From Naegleria lovaniensis (taxonomy: Eukaryota; Heterolobosea; Eutetramitea; Acrasida; Naegleriidae), in the NCBI RefSeq assembly GCF_003324165.1, contig NW_025407858.1:56467-120466 (forward strand): a DNA stretch of 64,000 bases. The letters run 5' to 3'. The notes beneath the pieces are model-generated. The model made no database searches. It worked only from the letters and a program-made list of their open reading frames with translations, and was not told the origin of the DNA. Positions 26,382 through 33,067 of the stretch are shown piece after piece. The position numbers and the translations under genes are program-made. Position 1 is the stretch's first letter. The number at the start of each line of letters is the position of its first letter.

Positions 26382-27507
26382 ATGGCGCAACATGATGATG
26401 CCAATCCTTACTTGTTGCTTCAAACACTCAATGATGACGTTTTCCGAATTATTCTTTCCTACTTTACCATTCATGAATTATGTGAATTACACATGACCAG
26501 TAAATCGTTCATACTGGCAAATCTATCTTGCGAGGATTGTTTCTGGCAACATCATTACCGAACAAAATTACAAAAATTCAAACAATGGACCGCACAAAGT
26601 CTATTTGATCCGGAAACCAATTCAAAGATCACTACGTATCCTGAGCATATCTTAAAATATGATCAAAAAACGTCTAACTTTAAATACAATTTAATTGAAA
26701 TGAATCATGAACTGGAACGAGCGACCGAGGAACATGTGAGCCAAGTATTTAATGAATTGAAAACATTTAAACATTTACACAGCATTCCATTCTACACTAA
26801 AAAAGAATTGAAAGAAACATGTTCAACAATTTCAATTGCACAATATTTAAAACAAGTTTATGGTGATTTACAATTTAGAGTGATCGTGAATGGCAATCCA
26901 GGAGTCGGAAAAACATGTTTCTTGTTTGCAAAAAGTTATAATCTACGACATTCTGATATGGAATATATACCCACTGTGTATGAAAATTTTATTTGGCAAT
27001 ATACAAAGGGACAAGACCAGATTGATCTTGATCTTTGGGATACTGCTGGACAACCTGAGTAAGTGAAAAGTTTGGACATGTGAAATTTCAAATATCTATG
27101 AAATTAGTTATGACAAACTCAGAGTACTCTGTTACCCGAACGCTAGCTTATTTTGCCTTTGTTTCAGCGTTGAAGACATTTCCAGCGTTCGAAACTTGTA
27201 TCATAAATGGATTCCAGAAATTCAGACACATTGTCCCAATACGCCCATTCTTTTGATGGGATGTAAAACGGATATTCGTTCAAATGTTGAAGTTTGCTCT
27301 CGTGTGAGAATCAAAGATTTATGGAGACCATTATCGTTTCAGGATGGAGAAGAAATTGCAAGAGCATTGGGTTGTGTAACCTATGTAGAAACCAGTTATG
27401 TTACAATGGAAGGCTTCGATGATATTACAGAAATATTTGTAAATGTCTTGTACGTTCATGCAAAAGCGAATGAGAAGAAAAAGAAATTTGGATGCAAGCA
27501 ACAATAG
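26382..27507 (+). CDS. F-box / Rho-like GTPase fusion protein, second copy
   Basis: Exons 26382-27058 and 27108-27507 around a 49-nt GTAAGT..TTAG intron give 358 aa. ATG 26382 is chosen because the upstream extension has only TTG. The F-box-like part (NDDVFRIILSYFTI) is at residues 14-60 and the P-loop GNPGVGKT at about 173-180. The switch II motif is a canonical DTAGQ, followed by YDKLRVLCYPNA, LFCLCFSV and the G4-region GCKTDIR, typical of Rho/Rac GTPases. The fifth motif reads ETSY. It has the same architecture and intron location as the gene at 1345-2509, but with intact hydrolysis residues. The tail is Lys-rich and has no CAAX box. An F-box tied to a GTPase suggests nucleotide-controlled ubiquitination; this is inference. 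Confidence 0.85.
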
Positions 27508-27539
27508 AGTTTTACAATTTCAAATGGCAAACCGAAAAA

Positions 27540-28943
27540 ATGTCTCAATTTGTATCATCACGAACAGAGGATGGAAAGAGAAAAATTAATGACCATTCGA
27601 CAAGTAGTGCTCAACAAGAGGATGATCATATTAAAAAGAGAAAGGTTTCCGATAGCGATCGTTCAAATATGACCACATCCGTTCAATTTTCGCAACAACA
27701 AATATATGAGTACATTAATCAAAGAAATTTTGAACAAGCTTTGGATTTGTTGATGAAATGGATGAATTCCGATCAAGCTACTGCCGATGATAGTGGGCAC
27801 ATTTTTGAATATTTAAAAAAAATTCACAAATTTGGGTTTAATAACTTTTCGAGCGTATTCCGAGATTTGGAAGATGATCAACATCAAAACGATTGCAAAA
27901 AGTTACTTCTTGCATGCATGAACTGCGGACGATGTGGACATGCAGCTGACTTTGATAAGGCAAGGTTATTATTTCAATCGGATTCTCTTAAATCTCACTA
28001 CCTTTCTCAAAACATGATGGGAAATCTTTACTTTGAAGGAAAAGGTGTACCCATCAATTACATCAAAGCAAAAGAATACTACGAGTTGGCTGCACAACAA
28101 AATTATTCGAGTGGTGTTCACAATATGGGAAATATGTATTACTATGGTCACGGAGTGGCTCAAGATTATATGAAGGCCAAAGAATGCTTTGAGCTAGCGT
28201 CCCAAAAAGCACTATTAGAGATTACATGTCACAATAATTATGCATTTGAAAATCATTATTCAGAAGCAATGTGTGCACTCGGAATGTTATTTCAGTTTGG
28301 GTTGGGAGTCGATCAAAGTCATGAAAAAGCGAAAGAATGTTATGAAGCTGCAGCGAAACATCACTCAGCCAAAGCTTATTATAACCTAGGTGTCATGAAT
28401 TACTTGGGACATGGAGTACCCATAGACATGGTCAAAGCCAGAGAATACTACGAGTTGGCTGCAGCACAAAATCACTCTGATGCCATCAACGAAATGGGAA
28501 ACTTGTATTTCAATGGAGATGACGTTGTCCAAAGTTATGAAAAAGCAAGAGAATACTATGAGAGAGCTGTACAACTGAACAACACTGAGGCCATGCTTAC
28601 CATGGCAGAAATGTTTGAACAAGGTTTAGGAGTCACTCCAAATTTCGAACAAGCTGCGAAATATTACAAAATGGCTTCAGATCTAAATGACCCTACTGCG
28701 CAATATCATTTGGCTGTGATGTATGCAGATGGTATTGGTGTGCCTCACAATGTAACACGAGCAATTTATTATTTCGAGTTGGCAGCAGCACAAAGCTTTT
28801 TCGACGCTCAAGAGAAAAGTAACGAGTTGCGATTGAAAAGATTTTGTTTGAATTTTAGCAGTGCAATGCTCAAAAACGCTGAAGCTTCGATTTCTTTTTC
28901 AGATGTGAACATTGTTGCCTTGGATGAGCTGGAAAACGAATAG
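27540..28943 (+). CDS. Sel1-like repeat protein
   Basis: 467 aa. The ATG at 27540 is 33 bp after the previous stop; the frame reaches further back only by overlapping that gene. A short Lys/Asp-rich head is followed, from about residue 150, by seven or so 36-residue Sel1 units with the signature A-x-x-x-L-G-x-x-Y-x-x-G-x-G-V-x-x-D-x-x-K-A-x-x-Y-Y-E-x-A-A. One unit carries an insert after ASQKALLEI. Sel1 repeats form an alpha/alpha solenoid used as an assembly scaffold, for example in ER-associated degradation (SEL1L/Hrd3) and many signalling proteins. No signal peptide or membrane anchor is present, so it is probably cytosolic and not Hrd3 itself. Confidence 0.9.
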   Translation: MSQFVSSRTEDGKRKINDHSTSSAQQEDDHIKKRKVSDSDRSNMTTSVQFSQQQIYEYINQRNFEQALDLLMKWMNSDQATADDSGHIFEYLKKIHKFGFNNFSSVFRDLEDDQHQNDCKKLLLACMNCGRCGHAADFDKARLLFQSDSLKSHYLSQNMMGNLYFEGKGVPINYIKAKEYYELAAQQNYSSGVHNMGNMYYYGHGVAQDYMKAKECFELASQKALLEITCHNNYAFENHYSEAMCALGMLFQFGLGVDQSHEKAKECYEAAAKHHSAKAYYNLGVMNYLGHGVPIDMVKAREYYELAAAQNHSDAINEMGNLYFNGDDVVQSYEKAREYYERAVQLNNTEAMLTMAEMFEQGLGVTPNFEQAAKYYKMASDLNDPTAQYHLAVMYADGIGVPHNVTRAIYYFELAAAQSFFDAQEKSNELRLKRFCLNFSSAMLKNAEASISFSDVNIVALDELENE

Positions 28944-29078: not shown

Positions 29079-30932
29079 ATGACAAACAACAGACCCTTCT
29101 TCCCCAGGGCCCATATGATAGACGATGAAGATGATGATGATGATCAAGAATATCATTCATCAGCATCTTGTCGATCCTCTACAACCGATCAAGATCAAGA
29201 GGTGTCATCTCGCTCAACTCACAGTACAGGTTGTTCTCATGACGGTTCATCACATCAATCTTCTCAAAGTTCTTGCTCTTCTCCCAACTCAGACTTCATT
29301 CTTGAGAAATTCCAAAAGGAACTACTAACAACTATCAAACAGTTGCAACAAACAGACGTAAAATTCAAGAATTTCTCAAAGCAGAAAATGCTAGAGTTTA
29401 TGATGAACAATATTTCATTAGATGATGCACAAGATGAGGACGAAGACAATGAAACTCAAGTCTCCATTGCCGAAACGGATGTAGATTCGTCTCTTGAAGT
29501 GCCAACCAGTAGATTGAGAAAAGATTTTCACATTGAAAGAAAGGGCTTCAAGTTGGGATCTGGAGCGTTTGGAACCGTGATCAAAGGCGAGCATCGAATG
29601 GAAAACAAAATCTACGCCATTAAATTGGTCAAGTTTTCCAATGAAGAAAAGGGTGCCTCCAATTCGTGTCATTTGTCTACCAACGATAGCATTCCTGTCT
29701 CTATTGGAGAGGCCAAGGAGGAAGCAAAGAAACTATCATCTCTTCATCATCCTCGTGTGGTGAGATATTATAGTGTTTGGATAGAACCCCTTGTTGACGA
29801 AATTGACGAGCTCTTTGACCATTCAGATCAGAAGCAAAACATTACCGGCCAAAAAGTACTGTGCATGCAAATGGAATATTGTGAAACAACAATGAGACAC
29901 GCAATCAAAAAAAAGCTGAAGAGAGGCGACGCATGGAAATATTTCATGCAGATATTGGAAGTACTTGTATTTTTAAGTGAGAAATCGATTGTTCACAGTG
30001 ATTTAGTAAGTAATTCATTTCTGTGTTTTGGAATGAACTTGCGATTGGATTTTCAACATGTAGAAACCTGATAATATTTTCATCAATGGAGGTGAGATTA
30101 AATTGGGTGATTTTGGTCTCAGTTATCATCACAATGACAGCCAAAACATTAACGAGGATCGTGGTACGGACTTTTATATTCCTGGAAATGAATCCAGAGA
30201 AAACAATTTGAAAGTAGACATGTTCAGTCTTGGAATTATTTTTTATGAAATGTATGTATTAATGTTGAACAATCATTCGATGAGAATAATATTCAATGTG
30301 AAATCATTATTACAAGGTTAACCTATTTCAAAACTGGAACAGAAAGACTTAAAAAATTGAAAAACTTGAGGGACAACACTCACTCGTTTTTATCTCAATG
30401 CCAAGATTTGTATGAAATTGAAAAAGAGCTCATTGAGAAAATGCTTGATGTCAATATCCAGACAAGACCTTCAGCAAAAGATCTTCTCACATATTTGTGC
30501 AATCTAACATTCACATGTCCAAAATGTTCATCATCTAAACCAATGTGTGGAACTGCACCTTGGATTACCCACCTTACAGGAGTCACTCATGAGCCTCTTG
30601 TTGTGCTGGAAAAACTGCTTGAAAAGTTGAAAAAAGTTGGACATCTTCATGAAAATCCAATTCAAAATTTGAACTTGATACTGCAACAATTAGGAGGACA
30701 AATGTCTGAACAATTCACGAAAGATGTGAATGGAAATTTTTCAGCAATGGTATCCATTGATTTTTCAAACTCGCCACCAGAATTTACCTTGACAAATTTC
30801 ACGGAGAGTGCTTCTTGTTTTCGAACAAAAACTGAAGCCAAGCAAGAAGCATGTCGAAAAGCTGTAGCACAACTGATGGAGCAATTAAGAAAAAACAGTT
30901 GTGACGATGATAAACAAGAGAGCTTGCGTTGA
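29079..30932 (+). CDS. eIF2alpha-kinase-like protein with U1/JAZ-type zinc finger and dsRBD-like tail
   Basis: Exons 29079-30005, 30064-30251 and 30317-30932 (introns 58 and 65 nt) encode 576 aa. An acidic/Ser-rich head is followed by a kinase domain at about 150-435: Gly loop GSGAFGTV 160-167, Lys182 in YAIKLV, the eIF2-kinase hallmarks VVRYYSVWIE and LCMQMEYCE around an insert, catalytic HSDLKPDN 306-313, DFG 325-327, and KVDMFSLGIIFYEM. The APE motif is replaced by IPGNES. After the kinase comes C-X2-C-X14-H-X5-H (439-463), like U1/JAZ zinc fingers. Residues about 486-563 then show the dsRBD pattern (PIQNLNLILQQL helix, three strands, KTEAKQEACRKAVAQLM helix). Kinase identity is confident; the dsRBD is probable. 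It suggests a dsRNA-responsive translation-control kinase. Confidence 0.8.
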
Positions 30933-31003: not shown

Positions 31004-33067
31004 TTATTGCTTGACCTTTTTCATGGATGGCTCTCCGTTTTGTCCAGTTCTTGATGGTAGAGCATGGCTACCATTGGCATCTGTTTCTTGAATTGACCTC
31101 TTCTGTTGTTGACTACTGGTCGAAGAAGAGTGCGCCGGTGAAGATCGAGAAGTGTGTGGTGATGATTTTGCAAAGTGTGCGTCTGCCAAATTTCGTGCCT
31201 TCTCCATGAGTAATAATTTGTCTAGCAACTTGGAGCCACTGCAAACTTTTACCAACTCGTCCTGAGCAACTGTGACTGTTCGAGTCACAACATATTTGCC
31301 ATCCATTGGATTGAAATAAGTTTCAACGACTTGGTTATGGCTATTTCTGACATGATCCAAATTAACTTTGGAGTCACCGACGTAACAATGAAAATTCCAA
31401 GAAACTCCGTCATCGGCAATGCAGTATTGAAGAGAAAGAGACCCCTGATGGTGAGCTAGCTTGAAATAAGCAAATGCTTTCAACTCCACAACTTTTGCTT
31501 CATATTCACGCAAAAATTGTTCTCTAGAATCCAATATTCTCTTATACTTTTTGCTGTCGTACGAATCGCTTGGCAACAAATAATATTGCAAATCATCTAC
31601 AGTGACATTCTCTAGCATGTTTTCAAGGGTATTTGCGACTGTTTTGAATGCATTGGGCGTGTTTTTATCCTCCCTAATAAGAAGGAAATACCATCCTCCA
31701 TAATTGGGCAAATCGTATCCACACTCAGCAATAAGAGCCTCGTTTGCTTCCAATCCTTTAAATCGAGCAACAAGACTCTCTGAAATCTTTTTAACTTGAC
31801 ATACAGAGAATAGAGTGAGCTTTCTCTTAAATTGAAAGTAAAAATAGAAGCAGTTATCAGCAGAATTACGTGCATTCTCAACGATTGGCGAGTTGTTCAC
31901 AGGACACACGAGAAAATCACATGTTAGCTTATTGGGCCATTTCCATTTCATTAAATAGTCATTGGATCCTGGCTTGAATGCGCTTAATTCTCCAGATTTA
32001 GGGGTAAATATAAGTCCATCGTTTTTGTTGTACCCCTTATAAATGTACTCGCCTGTTTTTGGATCCTCTTTGATGCAATTAAGAACTGTCATCAACTCCG
32101 TCTTGTCATAAAAGTGTTTTCGAATTAATTTGAGACTCTTTGGGGTGGGTTTTCGCAAAACTTTTTGGTAATAGTAATAGTGAGGATCAGTGACACCGCT
32201 TGTTATTTCTTTGTATCGAGTTGTCATGGATTCTTTTCGCAATGACACAATCTTATCGACTGCAGTATTTGTTTCTTTGTGAATATATTCCTTCACAAAG
32301 CTAATGACATCATAAATAGAATAGTTATATCTCTTTTCTTGAATATTGTAAACAATTTCTCCGTCCAAAATTACCAAGTCTTGATATTTAACATCTGCCA
32401 TCTTCACAACCTTGCCTGAAATGGTACTCTTTGTTGGAAACACAATTTCTTCCAAGCATAAATAAAATTCAAAATTTCTGTCAAAAAAGAAAGAAAAGCA
32501 CCATCCGCTCAACCTCTTCAATGTTCTCCGCGTATTTGTGTTTGTGTTCAATAATTGAACAGTGTTTGTTCTTCTATTGTAAAGAAAGTTAGTGTTTGCA
32601 AGAATTGTCAATTGAAGCACAACATCTTCTTTTGCACCTTGCTTTGCATGATGATATGTACATTCAATGGCACAGTTTTCCAATAAGTTAAATTGGTCCG
32701 TATGATCATCATCATAAACCCAACGAGGAAAATTCTTGCTGCACAGCATCATCATCATGGCACGAATTCCGTCCGACTTTTCCGTAATGTAATACTCATT
32801 GTTCCTCAATTTTTCGAGAGAGGTCCTCGATATCTGAACAGCCATAGGACCAGGAAAATGATTAGGATCATTGAGTTCAAGGTTTTTCTGCAGTATTGTT
32901 TTTAGCTGATAGGAGCCATGTTCTCGTTCAAGAGCAGCACTTGAAGTGTTATTATCAATCATCTCTTGCAAGGCTCCAAAGGCTTCATGCGCCTCATTCT
33001 GAGAGAGAACACATTGTATGAAACTACTAGATGCTCTACAAAATTCGCTTGGGTTCAAACTCTCCAT
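31004..33067 (-). CDS. mRNA guanylyltransferase (capping enzyme)
   Basis: 687 aa from ATG 33067. The nucleotidyltransferase motif I with the GMP-accepting lysine is TEKSDGIR (Lys97). Motif III is LVILDGEIVYN, motif IV NDGLIFTP, and motif V LMKWKWP. A C-terminal OB-fold-like region with YCIADDGVSWNFHCY and a Lys/Ser-rich tail follow. The enzyme transfers GMP from GTP to diphosphate-ended nascent pre-mRNA in the nucleus. There is no N-terminal RNA triphosphatase domain, so triphosphatase activity must come from another protein, as in yeast. The stretch between motifs I and III (about 135 residues) is much longer than usual and includes a Thr/Asn-rich insert. No introns were seen. Confidence 0.92.
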   Translation of the reverse strand: MESLNPSEFCRASSSFIQCVLSQNEAHEAFGALQEMIDNNTSSAALEREHGSYQLKTILQKNLELNDPNHFPGPMAVQISRTSLEKLRNNEYYITEKSDGIRAMMMMLCSKNFPRWVYDDDHTDQFNLLENCAIECTYHHAKQGAKEDVVLQLTILANTNFLYNRRTNTVQLLNTNTNTRRTLKRLSGWCFSFFFDRNFEFYLCLEEIVFPTKSTISGKVVKMADVKYQDLVILDGEIVYNIQEKRYNYSIYDVISFVKEYIHKETNTAVDKIVSLRKESMTTRYKEITSGVTDPHYYYYQKVLRKPTPKSLKLIRKHFYDKTELMTVLNCIKEDPKTGEYIYKGYNKNDGLIFTPKSGELSAFKPGSNDYLMKWKWPNKLTCDFLVCPVNNSPIVENARNSADNCFYFYFQFKRKLTLFSVCQVKKISESLVARFKGLEANEALIAECGYDLPNYGGWYFLLIREDKNTPNAFKTVANTLENMLENVTVDDLQYYLLPSDSYDSKKYKRILDSREQFLREYEAKVVELKAFAYFKLAHHQGSLSLQYCIADDGVSWNFHCYVGDSKVNLDHVRNSHNQVVETYFNPMDGKYVVTRTVTVAQDELVKVCSGSKLLDKLLLMEKARNLADAHFAKSSPHTSRSSPAHSSSTSSQQQKRSIQETDANGSHALPSRTGQNGEPSMKKVKQ

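Follow-up and report, generated by a model that had tools for sequence, protein, structure and literature searches.

The window, a stretch of 64,000 nucleotides from the genome of Naegleria lovaniensis (30.7 Mb, 97 contigs), carries on contig C36 a gene whose predicted product joins an eIF2alpha-kinase-type domain to a zinc finger and a C-terminal dsRBD fold. The gene belongs to a small family, and we hold the architecture and the descent of this family, as read below, with high confidence. Computation supports the architecture, the descent from GCN2, the predicted dsRBD fold, the conservation in a second species and the substrate site, while RNA binding, dimerisation, the identity of the substrate and any defence against viruses or mobile elements are what we infer. 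The best explanation, to which we give about an even chance, is that the family would phosphorylate eIF2alpha under the control of double-stranded RNA (dsRNA) and shut off translation. The weights given to the readings rest on the introns, the tree and the conservation of the family.

Gene model and family members

The gene, read from open frames and splice sites, is split into three exons by two short GT-AG introns and has a predicted product of 576 amino acids (Table 1). A low-complexity N-terminus is followed by the kinase, one C2H2 finger and the C-terminal dsRBD fold, and the last three lie where the initial annotation had placed a kinase, a C-x2-C-x14-H-x5-H motif and a dsRBD-like segment. 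Since exon 3 is a single open frame that takes in the last part of the kinase, the finger and the dsRBD, the fusion involves no guess about splicing. A gene-model artefact was ruled out on this ground and because the spliced paralog equals an annotated protein, C9374_001535 (549 aa, identity of 100% in the region searched). The neighbouring capping-enzyme gene is convergent with the kinase gene, their stop codons being about 71 bp apart.

Table 1. Features of the kinase gene and its neighbours, in positions of the window
Feature	Position	Strand	Evidence or remark
Whole gene	29079..30932	+	three exons
Exon 1: N-terminus rich in Ser and acidic residues (about residues 1-152), then kinase to HSDL	29079..30005	+	frame, splice sites, Pkinase 3.4e-16 for this exon alone
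Intron 1: 58 bp, phase 0, HSDL^KPDN	30006..30063	+	position and phase as in paralog C15 and GCN2 C20
Exon 2: KPDN, DFG, degenerate activation segment RGTDFYIPGNES, alphaF	30064..30251	+	
Intron 2: 65 bp, phase 2, FYEM^LTYF	30252..30316	+	site and phase shared with C15 and GCN2 C20
Exon 3: kinase remainder, finger, linker, dsRBD fold, stop	30317..30932	+	
Kinase domain, about residues 156-432	29544..30497	+	both introns inside; LGSGAFGTV, YAIK, HSDLKPDN, DFG, alphaG FKTGTERLKKLKNLR
C2H2 finger, residues 439-463	30516..30590	+	U1/JAZ-like spacing C-x2-C-x14-H-x5-H, HLTGVTH
dsRBD fold a-b-b-b-a (predicted), about residues 486-569	30657..30908	+	RNA-contact loop degenerate
Ras-family GTPase fragment	26382..27062	+	likely a single exon of a larger gene
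Sel1-repeat protein, 7 repeats	27492..28943	+	just upstream of the kinase gene, same strand
mRNA capping enzyme	31004..33067	-	PF01331 9.7e-18, PF03919 6.2e-09

The family comprises the window gene, a near-identical copy on contig C65 (C9374_013030), the paralog C9374_001535 on C15, the N. fowleri protein P0122 and P0002, which corresponds to exon 1 alone and is 50% identical to that exon of the window gene. The order kinase, finger, dsRBD is common to the paralog and its N. fowleri ortholog, and the predicted RNA-binding-type tail is a feature of the family and not of the window gene alone. Searches of the genome with the tails found only C15, C36 and C65 at E<=1; locus L022, considered as a third family member, reads as an ordinary kinase. 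Exon 3 alone retrieved nothing at E<=0.001 among 1,445 candidate proteins, in a search whose length limits leave full-length relatives outside. N. gruberi was named in none of the 120 rows listed of 343, or of 263, most of the rows being given without an organism name. A scan of IMG/VR with the family alignment returned two loci, in which the kinase match was 24% identical.

The copy on C65 (C65:33500-39000) is identical to the window copy over 929 bp and 98.4% identical over 3,382 bp. The assembly tool used separates heterozygous contigs (PMC6125883), and this copy is probably the other haplotype. Its coding sequence bears, near codon 22, an insertion of about 1.2 kb that is absent from the window copy and whose ends carry similar short motifs in inverted order; it looks like a mobile element. 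The two copies differ at 25 places in 549 codons (dN 0.0153, dS 0.0156), and some of the differences are apparently paired small indels in the dsRBD. The 30 codons of alphaG hold four nonsynonymous and no synonymous differences, which are too few, and were chosen after the fact, and so were not used. An inserted copy and an equal divergence at both kinds of site, although the differences are too few for a firm ratio, would fit a window gene that is a decaying or polymorphic duplicate of little function, with the paralog as the working gene. We consider this unlikely, as the frame, the splice sites and the core catalytic residues of the window copy are intact and the relative P0002 shares its first exon.

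Affiliation and descent of the kinase domain

By its ranking in the PDB, its profile scores, its alphaG motif and its place in trees, the predicted window kinase is of the eIF2alpha-kinase type, in agreement with the initial annotation, which had named the GCN2/PKR/PERK group. A phmmer search of the PDB (best 60 of 1,587 matches) ranked GCN2 first (5.9e-33), then PKR (3.4e-25), PERK (3.6e-23) and HRI (1.7e-17); the rows that followed were a chain partly labelled PKR (6npy_B, 5.2e-16) and NEK7 (1.6e-15). The general Pfam Pkinase profile matched the near-identical copy P0001 at 8.7e-41. Against group profiles, the window kinase scored 206 bits for GCN2, 176 for HRI, 116 for NEK, 104 for WEE/MYT1 and 88 for a CAMK-type profile. 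The corresponding scores were 201, 188, 143, 164 and 111 for the paralog and 141, 123, 98, 110 and 65 for the N. fowleri protein.

Two trees addressed the position of the family more closely. In the first (28 rows, 20 of them hand-picked from 239 retrieved proteins), the window protein, the paralog and the N. fowleri protein formed one clade (100/100) that adjoined the genome's own GCN2 (86/93) within the eIF2alpha kinases (92/85). Several of its group labels, e.g., GCN2 for P0004, P0005, P0123 and P0125, PEK for P0008 and WEE for P0131 and P0144, were assigned by us from sequence and motifs. A second tree of 33 rows, which omitted two long rows as well as the N. fowleri protein and gained the eight of 18 further rows accepted by the domain cutter, gave supports of 88/76 beside GCN2 and 92/82 within the eIF2alpha kinases. 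The phylogeny proposed in the initial annotation has in this way set the kinase beside GCN2 and among the eIF2alpha kinases, but both trees were built without PKR or PERK rows.

The introns provide our strongest argument for descent from GCN2, because the C15 paralog and the GCN2 gene on C20 have both of them at identical sites and in identical phase. Intron 1 (phase 0) comes after the L of HxDL, and intron 2 (phase 2) falls within the M codon of FxEM; in the HRI-like genes of C67 and C7 the frame is open across both sites. Besides the introns, the profile scores, the ranking in the PDB and the alphaG motif speak for GCN2; tree and introns together identify the window kinase, on comparative grounds, as derived from GCN2 and not from PKR. 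Descent from PKR itself was ruled out, the kinase comparison and the introns both pointing towards GCN2.

A grouping with WEE1, which the initial annotation had named as a possible refutation, received a mixed answer. Both trees place the kinase with the eIF2alpha kinases, but approximately unbiased (AU) tests did not reject a clade of the family with WEE1/MYT1 (p 0.381 and 0.118), nor one with HRI (p 0.14), and the paralog reached 164 bits for WEE/MYT1 as against 201 for GCN2. That the eIF2alpha-kinase look is superficial and the kinase belongs to the WEE1/MYT1 type is nevertheless very improbable in view of the two introns common with GCN2, the PDB ranking and the alphaG motif. For the model of the paralog, Foldseek likewise filled its 18 best rows with GCN2, although the alignment behind this model included three GCN2/PEK-type rows and CDK2 came closely behind PERK.

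The catalytic Lys, the HxD Asp and DFG are intact in the window kinase. Other positions are altered: HRD reads HSD in the window protein, the paralog and P0002, and the window loop NINEDRGTDFYIPGNES has no Thr before GT and a degenerate APE. Yeast GCN2 is phosphorylated on the Thr five residues before the GT Thr, a position occupied by N in the window protein and H in the paralog. The lack of SPE/APE remarked on in the initial annotation is true of the window protein; the APE position reads GNES or NKE in the family, the paralog keeping a Glu there (NKE). The degenerate APE and the missing loop Thr are common to the window protein, the paralog and the N. fowleri protein. An activation-loop Thr before GT, the HRD Arg and APE are typical of eIF2alpha kinases without being universal. 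Since rows of this group themselves deviate from HRD (HKN in the C7 protein, HHD in P0142), we did not take these losses as excluding membership. The C7 protein, an HRI-like kinase (C7:194500-200500), also has no GT before the SPE segment and is possibly inactive.

The HRD Arg normally reads the phosphate on the activation-loop Thr. Its loss together with its partner is coherent, and activation of the window kinase probably does not need loop phosphorylation. With HSD, no loop Thr and no APE, activation would not match the scheme of PKR and GCN2 exactly.

The T-x-x-E-R of helix alphaG is the docking motif for eIF2alpha. It is complete in the window protein (FKTGTERLKKLKNLR), as in the GCN2, HRI and PERK rows; the paralog retains T and R but has lost the Glu, and the N. 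fowleri ortholog has neither T nor E. These losses, together with HSD and the altered activation segment, would suit a GCN2-derived kinase that has left eIF2alpha and phosphorylates another substrate on RNA. We regard this as doubtful, given the full docking motif and the intact catalytic residues of the window protein. The eIF2alpha of the genome keeps the Ser51-type site, which is residue 55 counting Met (SELSRKRIRS).

The finger and dsRBD-type tail

Fingers of the U1/JAZ type follow the consensus C-x2-C-x12-14-H-x5-H with HLxG. The window finger fits it, and the motif has no second occurrence among the window's 273 six-frame ORFs with a length of 60 aa or more (35,621 aa). When the tail was shuffled 200,000 times, the motif arose in 76 cases; the paralog and the N. 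fowleri protein keep it. A beta-beta-alpha structure was predicted for the finger of the paralog, and the window finger had low confidence in its own model. The type proposed in the initial annotation is thus borne out by spacing and HLTGVTH, but neither the window exon nor the paralog was matched by the zf-met, zf-C2H2_jaz or zf-U1 profiles.

The same Pfam library detected zf-met and zf-C2H2_jaz above cut-off in another protein of the genome, L027 (C50:33000-37500). Like the kinase tails, this protein places fingers before a C-terminal dsRBD, which is above cut-off; it differs in having three JAZ/zf-met fingers, spaced C-x2-C-x12-H-x5-H, and no kinase. A protein of this kind is a possible source of the tail module, with a weak sequence link (hhalign probabilities of 36, 65 and 84 to the kinase tails).

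The dsRBD profile PF00035, whose curated cut-off is 23 bits, was matched over its full length in window exon 3, but below that cut-off, at 13.8 bits (E 0.09), where an unrelated CHCH match scored slightly better (E 0.022). On the domain alone it was the best row, still below cut-off (16.9 bits, E 0.0097). The paralog reached 18.2-21.6 bits, also below cut-off, dsrm was absent from the rows of the near-identical copy P0001 up to E 10, and Pfam gave no row for the tail of the N. fowleri protein. By sequence, the window tail matched no dsRBD among its three PDB matches (E 0.35-0.62), and it was absent from the eight best rows for a profile of the paralog's dsRBD. All eight PDB matches of the paralog tail were dsRBD proteins, mostly weak; its best E value, 2.1e-5, sums over the three dsRBDs of ADAR1, none significant singly, and its best single-domain chain had an E value of 0.036.

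Structure prediction returned the fold that the initial annotation expected. The alpha-beta-beta-beta-alpha arrangement of the window tail comes from one of five AlphaFold2 (AF2) models (62.2; the others 40.6-48.2), built with the paralogs in the alignment, and the fold is seen in predicted models only (window and paralog). VIA-align listed 50 rows for it, all of which we take, from titles and general knowledge, to be chains of dsRBD-containing proteins; Foldseek gave no match at E<=0.001, and neither did a fold search of BFVD. The RNA contacts of dsRBDs are made by GPxH, also visible as GPPH in the ADAR1 rows, and KKxAK. The paralog and the N. fowleri protein have GPPH and KKxxK, whereas most of these contact residues are gone from the window dsRBD. 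Of the key residues credited to it, K-x-x-A-K is present, but there is no GPxH, and the second Lys of KKxAK has not been kept.

The near-top Foldseek and VIA-align rows include the third dsRBDs of TRBP, Loquacious and PACT and dsRBD5 of Staufen, which are protein-binding dsRBDs. With the RNA-contact loop lost in the window copy, this points to the possibility that the tail is a protein-interaction module that pairs with the paralog or a Dicer/RNAi partner, its trigger not necessarily being dsRNA. The genome appears to have RNAi parts, namely three Piwi-domain hits above cut-off (L030-L032) and a dsrm-bearing protein with two RNase III signatures by eye (L028, C7:288000-293500). We treat a protein-binding tail as a serious but less probable reading than one that reads RNA.

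Proposed function and comparison with known systems

We postulate that the kinase domain of GCN2 was copied, the tRNA-sensing parts being left behind, and that this copy gained a C-terminal zinc finger and dsRBD and gave rise to a small Naegleria family. Structured or double-stranded RNA bound to the finger-dsRBD tails would bring kinase domains together, and the kinase would dock eIF2alpha through alphaG and phosphorylate its Ser51-type site, leading to less translation. RNA reading would probably be strongest in the paralog and eIF2alpha docking in the window protein; RNA reading may even be located in the paralog rather than in the window protein. In a more elaborate and rather improbable version, the two paralogs would form a PKR-like system built from GCN2, a heterodimeric dsRNA-gated shut-off against viruses or mobile elements with the dsRBD of C9374_001535 and the docking helix of the window protein. 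A giant virus of Naegleria is known (PMC11702301). Yeast assays of eIF2alpha kinases have been used for fish PKR and PKZ (PMC2291453).

GCN2 (EIF2AK4) is the closest known kinase domain by PDB search, profiles and tree, and its C20 copy shares both introns. The window protein differs in HSD and the degenerate activation segment and carries a finger and a dsRBD fold instead; searched against Pfam up to E 10, exons 1 and 3 of the window gene and P0001 showed neither an RWD nor a HisRS-like domain. As these other domains of GCN2 are absent, the window protein is not GCN2.

Fish PKZ is also an eIF2alpha kinase with a different nucleic-acid-sensing module (PMC2291453), but its Z-alpha domains are N-terminal and it is related to PKR. 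With PKR (EIF2AK2) the family shares an eIF2alpha-kinase-type domain joined to a dsRBD fold, and the paralog tail matches the dsRBD region of PKR weakly in the PDB (E 0.69-0.7). The dsRBDs of PKR are N-terminal to the kinase (PMC2291453), whereas the Naegleria proteins carry a single dsRBD at the C-terminal end, behind a zinc finger, and their kinase comes from GCN2; this sustains the separate origin put forward in the initial annotation. A study that searched mainly vertebrate proteomes finds EIF2AK2 from bony fish onward only (PMC5851622), so that the Naegleria family would be a separate invention; 'EIF2AK2/PKR-like' appears as a name in a list of receptors in work on a mollusc (PMC9334734). 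Among the papers listed in our literature searches, judged largely by title and opening of the abstract, none describes a Naegleria kinase of the dsRBD-eIF2alpha type. Should dsRNA control one or the other kinase, the coupling of dsRNA sensing to eIF2alpha phosphorylation would have arisen at least two times, starting from distinct parental kinases in lineages that lie very far apart, and a PKR-type mechanism would exist in a protist. Collectively, the family looks like a set of independently assembled dsRBD-eIF2alpha-kinase-type proteins, cousins in kind of the vertebrate antiviral sensor PKR.
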